Below, piece by piece: positions 3-41,129 of a stretch of 41,129 nt of DNA. The notes beneath the pieces are model-generated. The model did no database searches. It had not been told where the DNA came from and saw only the letters and a list, made by a program, of their open reading frames with translations. The DNA lies in assembly GCA_913050095.1 (NCBI GenBank), contig CAJXAV010000008.1, forward strand, positions 1 to 41,129, in the 5' to 3' direction. A program made the position numbers and the translations under genes. Numbering within the stretch: the first letter of the stretch is position 1; each line of letters starts with the position of its first letter. Source of the stretch: an uncultured Gammaproteobacteria bacterium. Its GTDB lineage: Bacteria > Pseudomonadota > Gammaproteobacteria > Poriferisulfidales > GCA-002705445.

Positions 3-158
3 AAAAATTTTCTCTCTATATCTACATGTGCAAAAAGTATTGAAAGAATTGGGGACCATGCTAAAAATATCGCACAACATACTATCTATTTAGTTAAAGG
101 AAAAGATATTAGACACACATCCGTAGAACAAGTTAGATCCGAGCTTGACCAGGATTAA
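3..158 (+). CDS. phoU: PhoU C-terminal fragment (phosphate transport/regulon regulator), truncated by window start
   Basis: Frame 3 translates to KNFLSISTCAKSIERIGDHAKNIAQHTIYLVKGKDIRHTSVEQVRSELDQD*, which carries the PhoU-type ERIGDHAxNIA signature; stop TAA at 156-158. Missing from the ORF track. Confidence 0.85.
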   Translation, partial: KNFLSISTCAKSIERIGDHAKNIAQHTIYLVKGKDIRHTSVEQVRSELDQD

Positions 159-1057
159 ATATTCTTAACCAAAAGATATTCAAGGAGTGCTTTTTGAGCA
201 TGAAGTCTATTCTCTGCTTCTTGCCAAACTACACTTGATTTACTATCTAAAACTTCTGACGTGACTTCTTCACCTCTATGGGCAGGTAAACAATGCATAA
301 ATATCACATTTTTATTTGCAACAGACATGATTTTTTCATTTACTTGCAATGGTTTAAATATTTTCTTTCTTTCCTCTTCCTCATCTTCCTGACCCATGCT
401 TGCCCATACATCTGTTACAATTAAATCAGCGTCTTTGGCGGCTATTAAAGGATCATGAGTAAGAATAATGCCTTCATTTTCCTTAAATAAAGATGGCGTA
501 TAATTTTTTGGAGTAGCTATTGATAGATGAAAATCAAATTGCTTTGATGCATTAATATATGAATTACACATATTATTAGCATCCCCAATCCAGGCAACTT
601 TCTTGCCCGCAATATCGCCATTAATTTCCATAAAAGTCATCATGTCTGCGAGTAATTGACAAGGATGCACAAGATCAGTTAAACCATTTATTACAGGCAC
701 TGTAGATTTTGAACAAAACTTTAATACATTATCATGATCATGTGTTCTTATTACAATACAATCAACCATACTAGAAATAACTTTTGCAGTGTCTTCTATC
801 GGCTCACCTCTGCCAAGTTGCGTATCTCTTGGTGATAAAAATAATGTATTTCCACCAAAATGAGTCATTCCAACTTCGAAAGATACTCTAGTTCTTGTTG
901 ATGATTTATCAAATATCAACGCTAAAGTTTTATTTTGTAATGGAGTATAAACAATATTATCTTGTGTCATCTTCTTAAGCTCAATAGCTCTCAAGATGAG
1001 ATTATTTAAATCTTTTTTTTGTATATCAAGCAGTGTAATAAAGTTTTTATTTTTCAT
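155..1057 (-). CDS. argF: Ornithine carbamoyltransferase
   Basis: STRTRVSFEVGM carbamoyl-phosphate binding motif, HPCQLLADMMT, FMHCLPAHRGEEV. Confidence 0.96.
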   Translation of the reverse strand: MKNKNFITLLDIQKKDLNNLILRAIELKKMTQDNIVYTPLQNKTLALIFDKSSTRTRVSFEVGMTHFGGNTLFLSPRDTQLGRGEPIEDTAKVISSMVDCIVIRTHDHDNVLKFCSKSTVPVINGLTDLVHPCQLLADMMTFMEINGDIAGKKVAWIGDANNMCNSYINASKQFDFHLSIATPKNYTPSLFKENEGIILTHDPLIAAKDADLIVTDVWASMGQEDEEEERKKIFKPLQVNEKIMSVANKNVIFMHCLPAHRGEEVTSEVLDSKSSVVWQEAENRLHAQKALLEYLLVKNI

Positions 1058-2219
1058 TGGAGTACTCTTTTAAAATCTGATACAAAACTTTTGAGATATA
1101 ATCTGCTTCATTTTTTTTTAAAATAAGAGGAGGTAATAATCTAATAACATTACCTGAAGTTAAGTTAAGTATTAGGTTTTTTTTGATACAATCTTCTACA
1201 ATATTTGTATTTTTTTTATTTATTTCAATACCTATCATTAAGCCCTTGCCTCTAATTTCTTTAAAAATGCTTAAATCTTGTATTTTATTTTTAATTTTTG
1301 ACATAAGGTAGTCGCCCATGACTTCAGATTGTTTGCATAAATTCTTTTTATCAATCACATCTATTACTTTTGAAGAGACTGCGCATACCAAAGGATTACC
1401 CCCAAAAGTGCTACCATGAGAGCCCGGCTTGAATAGGTTACTAGCTTTTTTATTTCCCAGACATGCACCAATCGGCACACCATTACCCAAACCTTTAGCA
1501 CATGTAACTATGTCAGGATTTATATTAGCATGTTGATATGAAAACCATTTTCCAGTTCTACCCATGCCAGTTTGAACTTCATCAACAATTAATAGAACAT
1601 CATTTTTTTGTGTGATGCTTCTAACATCTTTGAGAAATTTTTTGTTAGCTAATCTTATACCGCCTTCACCTTGAATTGTTTCCAGCATGACTGCTGATAC
1701 ATTATTTTTTTCAATCAACTTCTTAAATGTAACAATGTCATTTAGTTTGCATTTAACAAAACCACCTAGAAGAGGTTTAAATCCTTTTTGAACAGAGCTG
1801 TTGCCTGTAGCGCTTAAAGTCGCAATAGTTCTACCGTGCCATGATTTATCAAATATTATTATTTTTGAATTCTTTAAGTTTTTATTATTTGCATGAAGTC
1901 TTGCTAATTTTATTGCTGCCTCATTTGCCTCAGATCCGGAGTTACAAAAAAAAGCAGAATTCATTTTAGAAATTTTACATAATTTATTTGCAAGATTTTC
2001 TTGGTTTTGTATGTTGAAAAGATTTGAAACATGAATCAATTTTTTTGATTGCTTATTTATGATTTTTGTAACTTCATTATGAGCATGTCCAATGCAACAG
2101 ACTCCAATACCCGATAAAGCATCAAGATATTTTTCTTTTTTATTGGTATATAGATAGCAGCCCTTACCATATTCAAATGATATATCTATGGGTTTATAGT
2201 TTTTCATTAAATAATTCAT
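1047..2219 (-). CDS. argD: Acetylornithine/succinyldiaminopimelate aminotransferase (class III PLP)
   Basis: PLP aminotransferase motifs (FCNSGSEANEAAIKLAR, LIVDEVQTGMGRTGKWF, HGSTFGGNPL). The track starts at a TTG at 2225; the ATG at 2219 with AGAG upstream is more likely. Overlaps argF by 11 nt. Confidence 0.93.
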   Translation of the reverse strand: MNYLMKNYKPIDISFEYGKGCYLYTNKKEKYLDALSGIGVCCIGHAHNEVTKIINKQSKKLIHVSNLFNIQNQENLANKLCKISKMNSAFFCNSGSEANEAAIKLARLHANNKNLKNSKIIIFDKSWHGRTIATLSATGNSSVQKGFKPLLGGFVKCKLNDIVTFKKLIEKNNVSAVMLETIQGEGGIRLANKKFLKDVRSITQKNDVLLIVDEVQTGMGRTGKWFSYQHANINPDIVTCAKGLGNGVPIGACLGNKKASNLFKPGSHGSTFGGNPLVCAVSSKVIDVIDKKNLCKQSEVMGDYLMSKIKNKIQDLSIFKEIRGKGLMIGIEINKKNTNIVEDCIKKNLILNLTSGNVIRLLPPLILKKNEADYISKVLYQILKEYSNEK

Positions 2220-2230
2220 AAACAATACTC

Positions 2231-2260
2231 TAAAATAAAAACGGCAGCTAATGCTGCCGT
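2231..2260 (-). terminator. Rho-independent terminator-like hairpin between Leu-DH-like gene and argD (element A)
   Basis: On the minus strand ACGGCAGC-ATTA-GCTGCCGT followed by TTTTTATTTTA; perfect 8-bp stem (2241-2260). Confidence 0.75.
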
Positions 2261-2302
2261 GTTAATTAAGTATTTTACTGTCAATTATGATTTAATTCAA
2301 TG

Positions 2303-3403
2303 CTATAGGCTATCTAACTTAATTTTGAATTTATTTGGCTTCCCAGTAATATTTTGACCAATTTGCTGGCATACATCTGCTGGTGATATTTCATTTTCTT
2401 CGGCAATATTTAATATTTTAAGCGTTCTATCATAGAAAGCCTTTATTAATTTAAATGAATCTTGTTCATCTCTTGTCTTCAATATAATACCTGCTGATCT
2501 AAAGACCCCGCCAGCATTTGCCAATGTATCTGGTATATATAAAATATTGTTGGCAACTAACTGACGGTTGGCTTCCTCTGGGTCCGCGATGTCTAGTTGA
2601 TTATTTGCTGCCCCACAAATTATTTTACATTTAAGCTCTTTAATTCTTGATAATCTAATATCGTTACCTAATGCGCAAGGGGAGTAGATATCTACCTCTT
2701 CTTTATGAATTTCATCATGGTCAATATTTTTTATTTCATGGGAAAATTTAGTTTGTAGATTATCTGCAAATTTTATTTTATCAAAGTTTTTATCAGCAAT
2801 AACAAGCTTTGCCCCATCAGCTAAAAGATAATTTGATAGTTGGAAACCTACTTTCCCAACTCCTTTAATTGCAATTTTTAAACCTTTTACTGAATCTTTT
2901 TTTAATTTAAACTTAACCCCAGCTTTTATAGCATTATAAACCCCAAGTGCTGTGCATAAGCTTCCGATATCAGGATTAGAATATTTTGTTGTAAAGTCAG
3001 TATAGGCTGTTAATTTTTGTAACATCGTGTAATCAAAACCAACATCAAGACCACCATAATAATCTCCATTAAGATAATTTATTAACTCACCTAAACACGG
3101 GTAAAAATTTTTTTGATCAACTTTAAATGCTTTATTATTTTTATAAAAACTTTTTTGTATTGCTGTTTTGCCGCCACTCATATTAATGCCAGCAACAATA
3201 CATTTTTCAGTCATAGCTTCTGCAAGTTTCATTACGTCTAGGCATGCTCTTTCGTTATTTCTATAATTAAAATAACGTATTCCGCCAAACGCAGGGCCAT
3301 TTTTTAAAGTATGGATAGCTATAAAAGCGTTAAAATTATTTTTTTCATCGCAGCCACGTACTACTCGTTCATAGCCTTTTGTTTTTATCTCTTTTATATA
3401 CAT
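2303..3403 (-). CDS. Leu/Phe/Val/Glu dehydrogenase family protein (leucine dehydrogenase-like)
   Basis: NMSGGKTAIQ (GGGK-like catalytic Lys region), LDVGFDYTML, GVGKVGFQLSNYLLADGAKLVIAD Rossmann motif, IPDTLANAGGV. Confidence 0.85.
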   Translation of the reverse strand: MYIKEIKTKGYERVVRGCDEKNNFNAFIAIHTLKNGPAFGGIRYFNYRNNERACLDVMKLAEAMTEKCIVAGINMSGGKTAIQKSFYKNNKAFKVDQKNFYPCLGELINYLNGDYYGGLDVGFDYTMLQKLTAYTDFTTKYSNPDIGSLCTALGVYNAIKAGVKFKLKKDSVKGLKIAIKGVGKVGFQLSNYLLADGAKLVIADKNFDKIKFADNLQTKFSHEIKNIDHDEIHKEEVDIYSPCALGNDIRLSRIKELKCKIICGAANNQLDIADPEEANRQLVANNILYIPDTLANAGGVFRSAGIILKTRDEQDSFKLIKAFYDRTLKILNIAEENEISPADVCQQIGQNITGKPNKFKIKLDSL

Positions 3404-3417
3404 ATATATGATTTCAA

Positions 3418-3444
3418 ATAAAAAACGGCAGCTTATGCTGCCGT
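3418..3444 (-). terminator. Rho-independent terminator-like hairpin between puuD-like gene and Leu-DH-like gene (element B)
   Basis: On the minus strand ACGGCAGC-ATAA-GCTGCCGT followed by TTTTTTATTTG; perfect 8-bp stem (3425-3444), same stem as element A. Confidence 0.75.
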
Positions 3445-3481
3445 AAATAAATATTACTGTTAAATTTTTTTAAATTCAACT

Positions 3482-4072
3482 TTATAATGGTAAACCATGC
3501 ATATGACTGCTCATACACATTAACATTGGTATAGACAACAAAGTGTTTGTTCTAGATGCCATTAAAGCAACTACTTTACCTTTAGCAATCTGTGCTTCAG
3601 TTGCTTCAACAATACCTAAGATTCTTTTTTGATTTGGCCAGATTAAACCCCATACATTGAATAACATTATTGTTCCTAACCAAGCTCCTATTCCAATAAC
3701 TTCAGCACCGGTTTGAAGTGCAAAAGCATTATGAACACCAATACCACTATAGTGAAGAGCTGCCGCACCTGTTATCCAAGTTAACAAAGCGCCCCATCTG
3801 AAATAAAATAGGGCAGTAGGCGCAACATATTTATTTATAGCAGCAGGGCCAGGACCTTCTTTATCAGCTAATGCCGCAGCAACACCTGGGACTTGAACAA
3901 AGTTAAAGTAATATAATAATCCTATCCAAATAATACCAAAAAATACGTGAAGCCAAGTTACAAGAGACCAAAGAGGCATTCCAGGCCCAACATGCTCAAT
4001 AGAAAGGCTAATTAAAATTGCTAGTATGAAACCCAGACCGACGGTCATAGGTATTGATTTTAAAGGATTCAT
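3482..4072 (-). CDS. PuuD/Urate_ox_N-like integral membrane protein without cytochrome c domain
   Basis: Multi-TM protein with WLHVFFGIIWIGLLYYFNFVQVP and related motifs typical of the urate hydroxylase PuuD N-terminal membrane domain. Start revised to ATG at 4072 (MNPLKSIPM) because GGAGGT precedes it; the track's 4138 start adds an unlikely 22-aa extension. Confidence 0.75.
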   Translation of the reverse strand: MNPLKSIPMTVGLGFILAILISLSIEHVGPGMPLWSLVTWLHVFFGIIWIGLLYYFNFVQVPGVAAALADKEGPGPAAINKYVAPTALFYFRWGALLTWITGAAALHYSGIGVHNAFALQTGAEVIGIGAWLGTIMLFNVWGLIWPNQKRILGIVEATEAQIAKGKVVALMASRTNTLLSIPMLMCMSSHMHGLPL

Positions 4073-13958: not shown

Positions 13959-15272
13959 ATGATTATGAAAATTAACTCTAAATATACCAAAAATATAGAA
14001 AAATGGCTGGATATTTACGAGTCATGTAAATTAAAATTATATCAAGTTCAAAAGAAAATAATATCTATAATTTTAAAAAACAAAACAATATGTTTAGTTT
14101 TATGTAAAAAATTATTTAAAAAACCTAACCTTTCGGATCTAAAGAATTTATCGCTTAATCCAGAATTAACAATATTAGATAAATATATGCTCAAGAGCTT
14201 TATATTTTCGTTTATCTCAGTTTTATCAGTTTTAATTTTAGTTATTGTCGGAAGATTGTTTGTTAAGCTTTTAGAACTTGTTGTAGATGGAAGATTTGAT
14301 ATTGGAATGGTTTTTTCATTGCTATTTTTAAGTACATCAAAGTCAACAATATTATTGTTACCATTTGCGCTAATGATAGGCTTGATAATATGTTTGTCAA
14401 AATTTTACAGAGATAGTGAAATATATGCATTAAAAGCCTCAGGAAACTATAAGAAAGTATTTACAAAATTTTTTATTATGATTTCAATCCCGTCTTTTGC
14501 AGTAATTCTTCTATTAAATATATTTACTTCGCCATACTTAATAACAGAAATACAAAAAAAGAAAATTGAAGCGGCATCAACATCGGAAATCGGTTTAACT
14601 AATCCTGGAAAATTTATTCAAATGAAAGATAAAAACTGGATAATTTTTGTTGAGAATATTGAAAATGATATATCAAAAAGAATTTTTATAAAAAGCTCAG
14701 AAAATAATAAAATTTCTATTGAAACTGCAGAGGAGGGAGAAGAGTTTTTACAAGACGGCGTAAGAAGATTAGTTTTGAAAAACGGTCAAAGATATACTGG
14801 AACTCCTGGCAATGGTAATTTTCAGGTAATGAAATATGATGAACATGAAGTTAAATTATTAAATACTGCGCCAGATTTTTCGTTAAACTATAGAATGAAA
14901 AACATCTTTGATTTATTTGTTGATGAAAATAGGCCTTTTTCAAACGCAGAAATTCAATGGAGATTATTTGCACCTTTATCTGTCGTTATTTTAATCTTAT
15001 TCGCCTTTGTTTTTGGTGATGTAGCCCCACGACAAAATAAATATTCAAATCTTCTTTCGGCAATAATAATTTATTTTTTGTATTCAAATCTAGTTATTGT
15101 TTCTGTGAATCAAATTCAAAAAGAATCATTAATATTTAGCATAATTGGAACATGGTGGGTTCATTTTATAGCCTTGTTATTATGTTACACCATTTATAAA
15201 TTAAAAAAATATCAAATAAAAAATCCCAAAGAAATTTTAATGCTTGTTAAAAAGCTAAAAACTAAAATATGA
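13959..15272 (+). CDS. lptF: LPS export ABC transporter permease LptF
   Basis: YjgP/YjgQ-family TM protein (LDKYMLKSFIFSF), precedes lptG and is divergent from pepA; unusual ~72-aa N-terminal extension. Confidence 0.88.
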   Translation: MIMKINSKYTKNIEKWLDIYESCKLKLYQVQKKIISIILKNKTICLVLCKKLFKKPNLSDLKNLSLNPELTILDKYMLKSFIFSFISVLSVLILVIVGRLFVKLLELVVDGRFDIGMVFSLLFLSTSKSTILLLPFALMIGLIICLSKFYRDSEIYALKASGNYKKVFTKFFIMISIPSFAVILLLNIFTSPYLITEIQKKKIEAASTSEIGLTNPGKFIQMKDKNWIIFVENIENDISKRIFIKSSENNKISIETAEEGEEFLQDGVRRLVLKNGQRYTGTPGNGNFQVMKYDEHEVKLLNTAPDFSLNYRMKNIFDLFVDENRPFSNAEIQWRLFAPLSVVILILFAFVFGDVAPRQNKYSNLLSAIIIYFLYSNLVIVSVNQIQKESLIFSIIGTWWVHFIALLLCYTIYKLKKYQIKNPKEILMLVKKLKTKI

Positions 15273-41067: not shown

Positions 41068-41129
41068 CGGGGTATAGCGCAGTCTGGTAGCGCGCCTGCT
41101 TTGGGAGCAGGATGTCGGGGGTTCGAATC
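41068..41129 (+). tRNA. tRNA-Pro(TGG), truncated at the window end
   Basis: CGGGGTA acceptor, D-arm AGCGCAGTCTGGTAGCGC, anticodon stem CCTGC/GCAGG around TTTGGGA (anticodon TGG), T-loop GTTCGAATC; 3' end outside the window. Confidence 0.93.

Follow-up and report, generated by a model that had tools for sequence, protein, structure and literature searches.

A conserved terminator-like leader upstream of argD in Gammaproteobacteria, present in two copies at one locus of an uncultured bacterium

Why should two different amino acid genes of one bacterial locus be preceded by nearly the same short hairpin? This question is raised by a stretch of 41,129 nucleotides (hereafter the window) from the genome of an uncultured gammaproteobacterium (G000). 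Its minus strand carries, in order, a puuD-like gene, element B, a gene for an ELFV-type amino acid dehydrogenase, element A, argD and argF (Table 1). Read on this strand, both elements contain TTGAATT, 12 nt, ACAGTAA and then a further 14 nt (element A) or 9 nt (element B) before the stem, with ATG start codons located 21 nt past the stem at positions 2219 and 3403, respectively. A first-pass annotation of the window had reported this arrangement, and its coordinates, boxes and spacings all proved correct on the sequence, as did its description of a duplicated element ahead of amino acid genes, with one copy before argD and one before the ELFV gene. The best NCBIfam match of the latter gene is ScyB, at 209 bits and far under the cut-off of 600 for that family, and the gene is found in some members of the genus and not in all.

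Table 1. Features of the two elements and their neighbouring genes, in window coordinates.
Feature	Position	Strand	Remarks
argF, ornithine carbamoyltransferase	155..1057	minus	TIGR00658, 388 bits; next gene of the operon, overlaps the end of argD
argD, acetylornithine transaminase	1047..2219	minus	PF00202; TIGR00707, 474 bits (cut-off 410); ATG at 2219
Element A U-tract, TTTTATTTTA	2231..2240	minus	
Element A hairpin, ACGGCAGC-ATTA-GCTGCCGT	2241..2260	minus	argD leader; top match of model R2
Element A −10 box, TAAAAT	2272..2277	minus	overlaps the ttactgt box of the first-pass annotation
Element A −35 box, TTGAAT	2295..2300	minus	the aattcaa box of the first-pass annotation
ELFV-type amino acid dehydrogenase	2303..3403	minus	PF00208/PF02812; between copies A and B
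Element B U-tract, TTTTTATTTG	3415..3424	minus	
Element B hairpin, ACGGCAGC-ATAA-GCTGCCGT	3425..3444	minus	precedes the ELFV dehydrogenase gene; second match of model R2
Element B −10 box, TAATAT	3451..3456	minus	hairpin 6 nt further on
Element B −35 box, TTGAAT	3474..3479	minus	
puuD-like membrane protein (Urate_ox_N)	3482..4072	minus	PF06181; widespread upstream neighbour of argD

Both hairpins have the GC-rich stem and the immediately following U-run of an intrinsic terminator, form strong minus-strand folds (z = −3.1 and −4.7), and rank highest among the terminator-like sites of the first 20 kb. Nine family genomes yielded 13 copies of the element, and every one retains the U-tract. A generic terminator that follows many unrelated genes, with flanks that are not conserved, was the doubt that the first-pass annotation raised against itself. 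The search found otherwise, with two copies in the genome and conserved boxes. Specifically, when at most three mismatches are tolerated, the 20-nt pattern of the stem occurs at just two sites in the window (0.01 expected), and there is no third site in the whole assembly of 1,079,967 bases. This small, streamlined genome has very few strong intrinsic terminators, since a stricter scan of 439 kb of G000 (the window plus L125–L144) returned eight sites, two of which are A and B. Some of the other sites lie within genes. A generic recurrent terminator was rejected on this rarity and on the copy number of two.

Comparison across the class places the hairpin in a wider setting. Among 95 puuD loci of Gammaproteobacteria, 75 have argD downstream, and these puuD-argD loci (L159–L245) carry two kinds of hairpin. 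The first is a CCCGG-type terminator that is often located 14–30 nt past puuD, and the second, often 20–40 nt ahead of argD, combines a GGCRGY...RCYGCC hairpin with a U-tract. Many loci carry both: puuD is followed by a separate CCCGG terminator, and the hairpin before argD comes second. The leaders of 40 argD genes align cleanly, with 91% of cells paired and nine of the ten pairs changed on both sides. None of 500 shuffles reached the covariation of this alignment, which also lies above that of every slid register, and both the covariation score and the paired percentage hold when the sequences of the window family are removed. Because members of this alignment (A1) were selected for having the hairpin, these covariation figures are inflated and serve as description. 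Conservation of sequence is seen in the outer GGCRG/CYGCC, and the inner stem and loop vary. In family f2, the core CGGCAGC...GCTGCCG likewise persists between puuD and argD. At three f2 loci (L155, L156 and L157) the argD hairpin is a stem of 14–16 bp with the same core and no clean U-tract, and it may therefore work differently in this family.

A covariance-model search had been suggested in the first-pass annotation. Such a model (R1) was run on 143 genomes, with argD positions taken from a separate search. Of 35 matches scoring at least 35 bits, 25 are located directly upstream of argD in the correct orientation, and most top matches lie 9–105 nt upstream of this gene. Outside the training set, 28 of 89 genomes with argD have a leader match upstream of the gene at the strict threshold, and a leader is predicted in 45 of the 89 at 20 bits or more, according to a table compiled by hand from locus scans. 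By our estimate, the number expected by chance is far below one. In about ten loci with an argD leader, puuD is not adjacent or is divergent. In one further locus (L272, 1501–1542), which gave a strong R1 match, the same hairpin precedes argF, and the genome concerned has no argD match at the threshold used. Given this position before argF, the leader may be tied to the pathway as a whole and not to a single gene.

Some ordinary intrinsic terminators, which share the GC-rich stem and U-tract, also score with R1. Unlike the argD hairpin, which stands directly behind a promoter, before argD, and has a conserved stem, those examined are mostly 3′ of genes, and the strong non-argD matches that were inspected fall mostly shortly past a stop codon. 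It is therefore position, and not R1 score by itself, that defines the family. A second model (R2), built from argD leaders and trained without sequences of f1, f2 and f46, ranked the two window copies first and second over the 439 kb, with E-values of 7e-7 and 1e-5. The next-best matches (0.016 and 0.054) are both inside coding regions. Copy A is located where a family member is expected, 21 nt upstream of argD, whereas copy B precedes the ELFV gene instead. These comparisons offer good support for a class-wide leader family whose home is at argD, and they strongly favour a conserved argD leader over a recurrent terminator. The first-pass proposal of a duplicated element or shared regulatory RNA thus survives in part. 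The duplication is real, the element falls within the argD leader family and an attenuator role is probable, but the duplication is not a private one.

The conserved boxes next to the hairpin are best described as a promoter. Our comparison set included the 13 family copies mentioned above, 12 of which are from the genus. In all 12, the gap between TTGAAT and the −10 position is 17 nt, and 10 of them have TAAAAT or TAATAT as the −10 hexamer. The exceptions are copy B in G008 (TACTAT) and in G009 (AACGAT). Sigma70 promoters are recognised by just such a fixed 17-nt gap separating their two hexamers, and the boxes are for this reason predicted to form a sigma70-type promoter of the form TTGAAT, 17 nt, TAAAAT/TAATAT. 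In such a layout the hairpin would begin only a few nucleotides from the predicted transcript start and so occupy the 5′ end of the leader. The earlier view that boxes and spacings belong to a regulatory RNA therefore holds for the conservation of the boxes and not for their role, and ACAGTAA corresponds to the junction of the promoter spacer and the −10 box. The distance from the −10 box to the hairpin varies from 6 to 12 nt across the genus copies. That from the hairpin to the ATG varies from 16 to 21 nt among relatives, making the identical 21-nt start codon spacing of the window copies a local coincidence. Exact matches to TTGAAT-N14-CAGTAAWAT are confined to the hairpin element in 12 family genomes, and the box pair was thus rejected as the mark of a wider regulon. 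Class-wide, 48 of 74 leaders have a −10 hexamer with at least five of six matches at a distance of 6–22 nt ahead of the hairpin, compared with a mean of 6.2 and a maximum of 13 of 74 for shuffled sequences.

The promoter layout, the hairpin, the U-tract, their phylogenetic conservation, the covariation and the duplication can all be read directly in the genomes. With moderate confidence, we propose that the hairpin is a promoter-proximal attenuator of the argD operon that resembles the rimP-leader. This proposal fits because a strong terminator-like hairpin with a conserved stem comes straight after a promoter and before a gene. Each element would comprise the sigma70 promoter, a hairpin and U-tract within about 6–12 nt, a Shine-Dalgarno-like stretch and the start codon. 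Presumably, the hairpin serves as an intrinsic terminator at which RNA polymerase halts about 25–35 nt after the start, and readthrough into argD would require a factor, or some condition, able to recognise the conserved stem. Termination, its regulation and any arginine signal are what we infer from this arrangement.

How such a switch might be thrown is not visible in the leaders, as they offer neither an antiterminator nor an arginine leader peptide. In the argD leaders tested, no antiterminator pairing exceeded that of shuffles, and the alternative anti-terminator structures envisaged in the first-pass annotation, in which the upstream segment would pair with the 5′ arm, were no better than shuffles either. 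No leader peptide with arginine codons was found in the argD leaders tested. ATG or ATA is enriched right before the stem (22 of 74 leaders end in AT there), and the resulting peptides, which follow from the palindrome itself, have no run of arginine.

The main rival is that the element is a 5′ leader for stability and translation, whereby the hairpin protects the mRNA, the U-rich stretch and Shine-Dalgarno sequence bind S1, and no termination takes place. The start of the hairpin a few nucleotides from the predicted start site, the G-rich Shine-Dalgarno-like stretch directly after the U-tract and the lack of an antiterminator would all suit such a leader. However, it would need neither a conserved stem sequence nor a U-run that touches the stem, and both are conserved. 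Moreover, the U-tract of class leaders is no poorer in T than the tract of the puuD terminators at the same loci. It is often broken at positions 6–7. We consider this explanation unlikely.

The hairpin might instead be the ordinary terminator of the upstream puuD or ELFV gene that, in a compact genome, merely lies near the next start codon. The genes are codirectional, and the hairpin with its U-tract folds strongly (z of about −3 to −5). This explanation nevertheless appears improbable given the conserved promoter-like boxes between the upstream stop codon and the hairpin and the conserved stem sequence. In addition, puuD has its own terminator in many other genomes, and the hairpin is retained before argD at loci, such as L258, that lack puuD or have it in divergent orientation.

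The copy number of the leader tracks the presence of the ELFV gene among relatives. One copy, between puuD and argD, is found in relatives without this gene (G002, G006, G007 and, from the neighbouring genus, G011), and two copies flank the gene in the four genomes with a complete locus (G000, G001, G008 and G009). The locus of G005 breaks off inside the ELFV gene at a contig edge. The second copy thus appears to have been gained with the ELFV gene, or lost with it. Within the genus, a leader copy may have travelled along as the ELFV gene was inserted between puuD and argD, which would place both genes under the same leader. A scan of 84,980 species for the ELFV gene returned one close relative and four distant ones of 31–35% identity, and alongside this sparse result argD, and not the ELFV gene, is taken as the home of the leader. 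The duplication represents a natural experiment in which the same leader has been moved to a second amino acid gene.

The hairpin of copy A also coincides with a recombination junction, where identity shifts sharply on either side (window positions 2241–2260 and their equivalents in G001, G002, G005 and G009). Between G000 and G001, identity is 99% in the 70 nt before this hairpin versus 72–74% in argD after it. For G002 and G009, the values are 62% before the hairpin and 88–100% after it. The element therefore marks a junction at which related genomes gain, lose or exchange genes. With such a junction at copy A, and with an altered −10 box and a stem of 7 bp in copy B of G008 and G009, element B might be a functionless remnant that arrived with the ELFV insertion. 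We give this little credence, as the −35 box, stem and U-tract of copy B are retained in all four genomes where it is readable.

A DNA operator, with a repressor dimer on CGGCAGC-N4-GCTGCCG just past the −10 box, would suit the constant 4-nt centre and the non-compensatory stem changes within the family. It is nevertheless very improbable because, across the class, the loop and inner stem vary in length and covary, a pattern that an operator does not call for. The U-tract is also conserved, and the genome has no further site.

Among known systems, the attenuator reading finds its closest likeness in the rimP-leader, a conserved premature terminator in the 5′ region for which its discoverers argued that a protein recognises the stem (PMC2965389). 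Each consists of one terminator hairpin, whose stem sequence is highly conserved, and a U-stretch, at a variable distance from the gene. Both lack a visible antiterminator or aptamer, and for both an RNA-binding termination or antitermination factor is the proposed reader. The window elements have neither the stem nor the genes of the rimP-leader: its stem is GGGc...gCCC and its genes are rimP-nusA-infB, whereas the argD leader has GGCRGY...RCYGCC and precedes argD (or argF). The argD hairpin also differs in lying only about 6–22 nt past the −10 box. In leader-peptide attenuators of the trp and his type, the leader of a biosynthetic operon likewise contains a terminator hairpin. However, the argD leader has no room for both a coding region and alternative hairpins, and it has no arginine codon run or antiterminator. 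No Rfam family matched at the gathering threshold in the window, nor at an E-value of 0.5 in 11 argD/argF loci, and a riboswitch or other known Rfam RNA was rejected because no aptamer family matched. By analogy, we would file the argD leader among the conserved 5′ terminator leaders. No mention of an argD or argF leader or attenuator was found in the open papers searched, and a prior one in supplements (including that of PMC2965389) or subscription journals is possible.

The E. coli type of control by ArgR and its ARG boxes, like the proposed attenuator, acts on the first arginine synthesis genes at the promoter. The Arg_repressor domain (PF01316) was found above cut-off in none of 12 family genomes, with E. 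coli as a positive control, and an ArgR operator was rejected on this basis. Across the class, the leader is present in none of five argD genomes with ArgR versus 63 of 102 without it (Fisher p = 0.01, without phylogenetic correction), which is only suggestive of mutual exclusion. To our knowledge, how arginine synthesis is adjusted in most Gammaproteobacteria that lack ArgR is largely unexplained. The conserved argD leader provides a concrete, testable cis-element for this control, and its conserved stem suggests a reader acting in trans, which could be isolated biochemically. More tentatively, and at somewhat less than even odds in our judgement, the leader may be a class-wide cis-regulator that replaces ArgR, with a terminator hairpin of about 25 nt behind the argD(-argF) promoter that is read by a protein or nucleotide signal and can be copied to other amino acid genes.

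Two further observations concern RNA genes. A possible small RNA gene is located on the plus strand of another locus of the same genome (L141, contig C18, about 15050–15180), opposite and between two minus-strand genes. It has no Rfam match. Two CCTCC motifs accompany its TTGACA promoter, and its strong terminator reads AAAGCGCAG-TTCTTAC-CTGCGCTTTTTTTTT. In the window itself, a tRNA gene at 41068–41129 is truncated by the window end.
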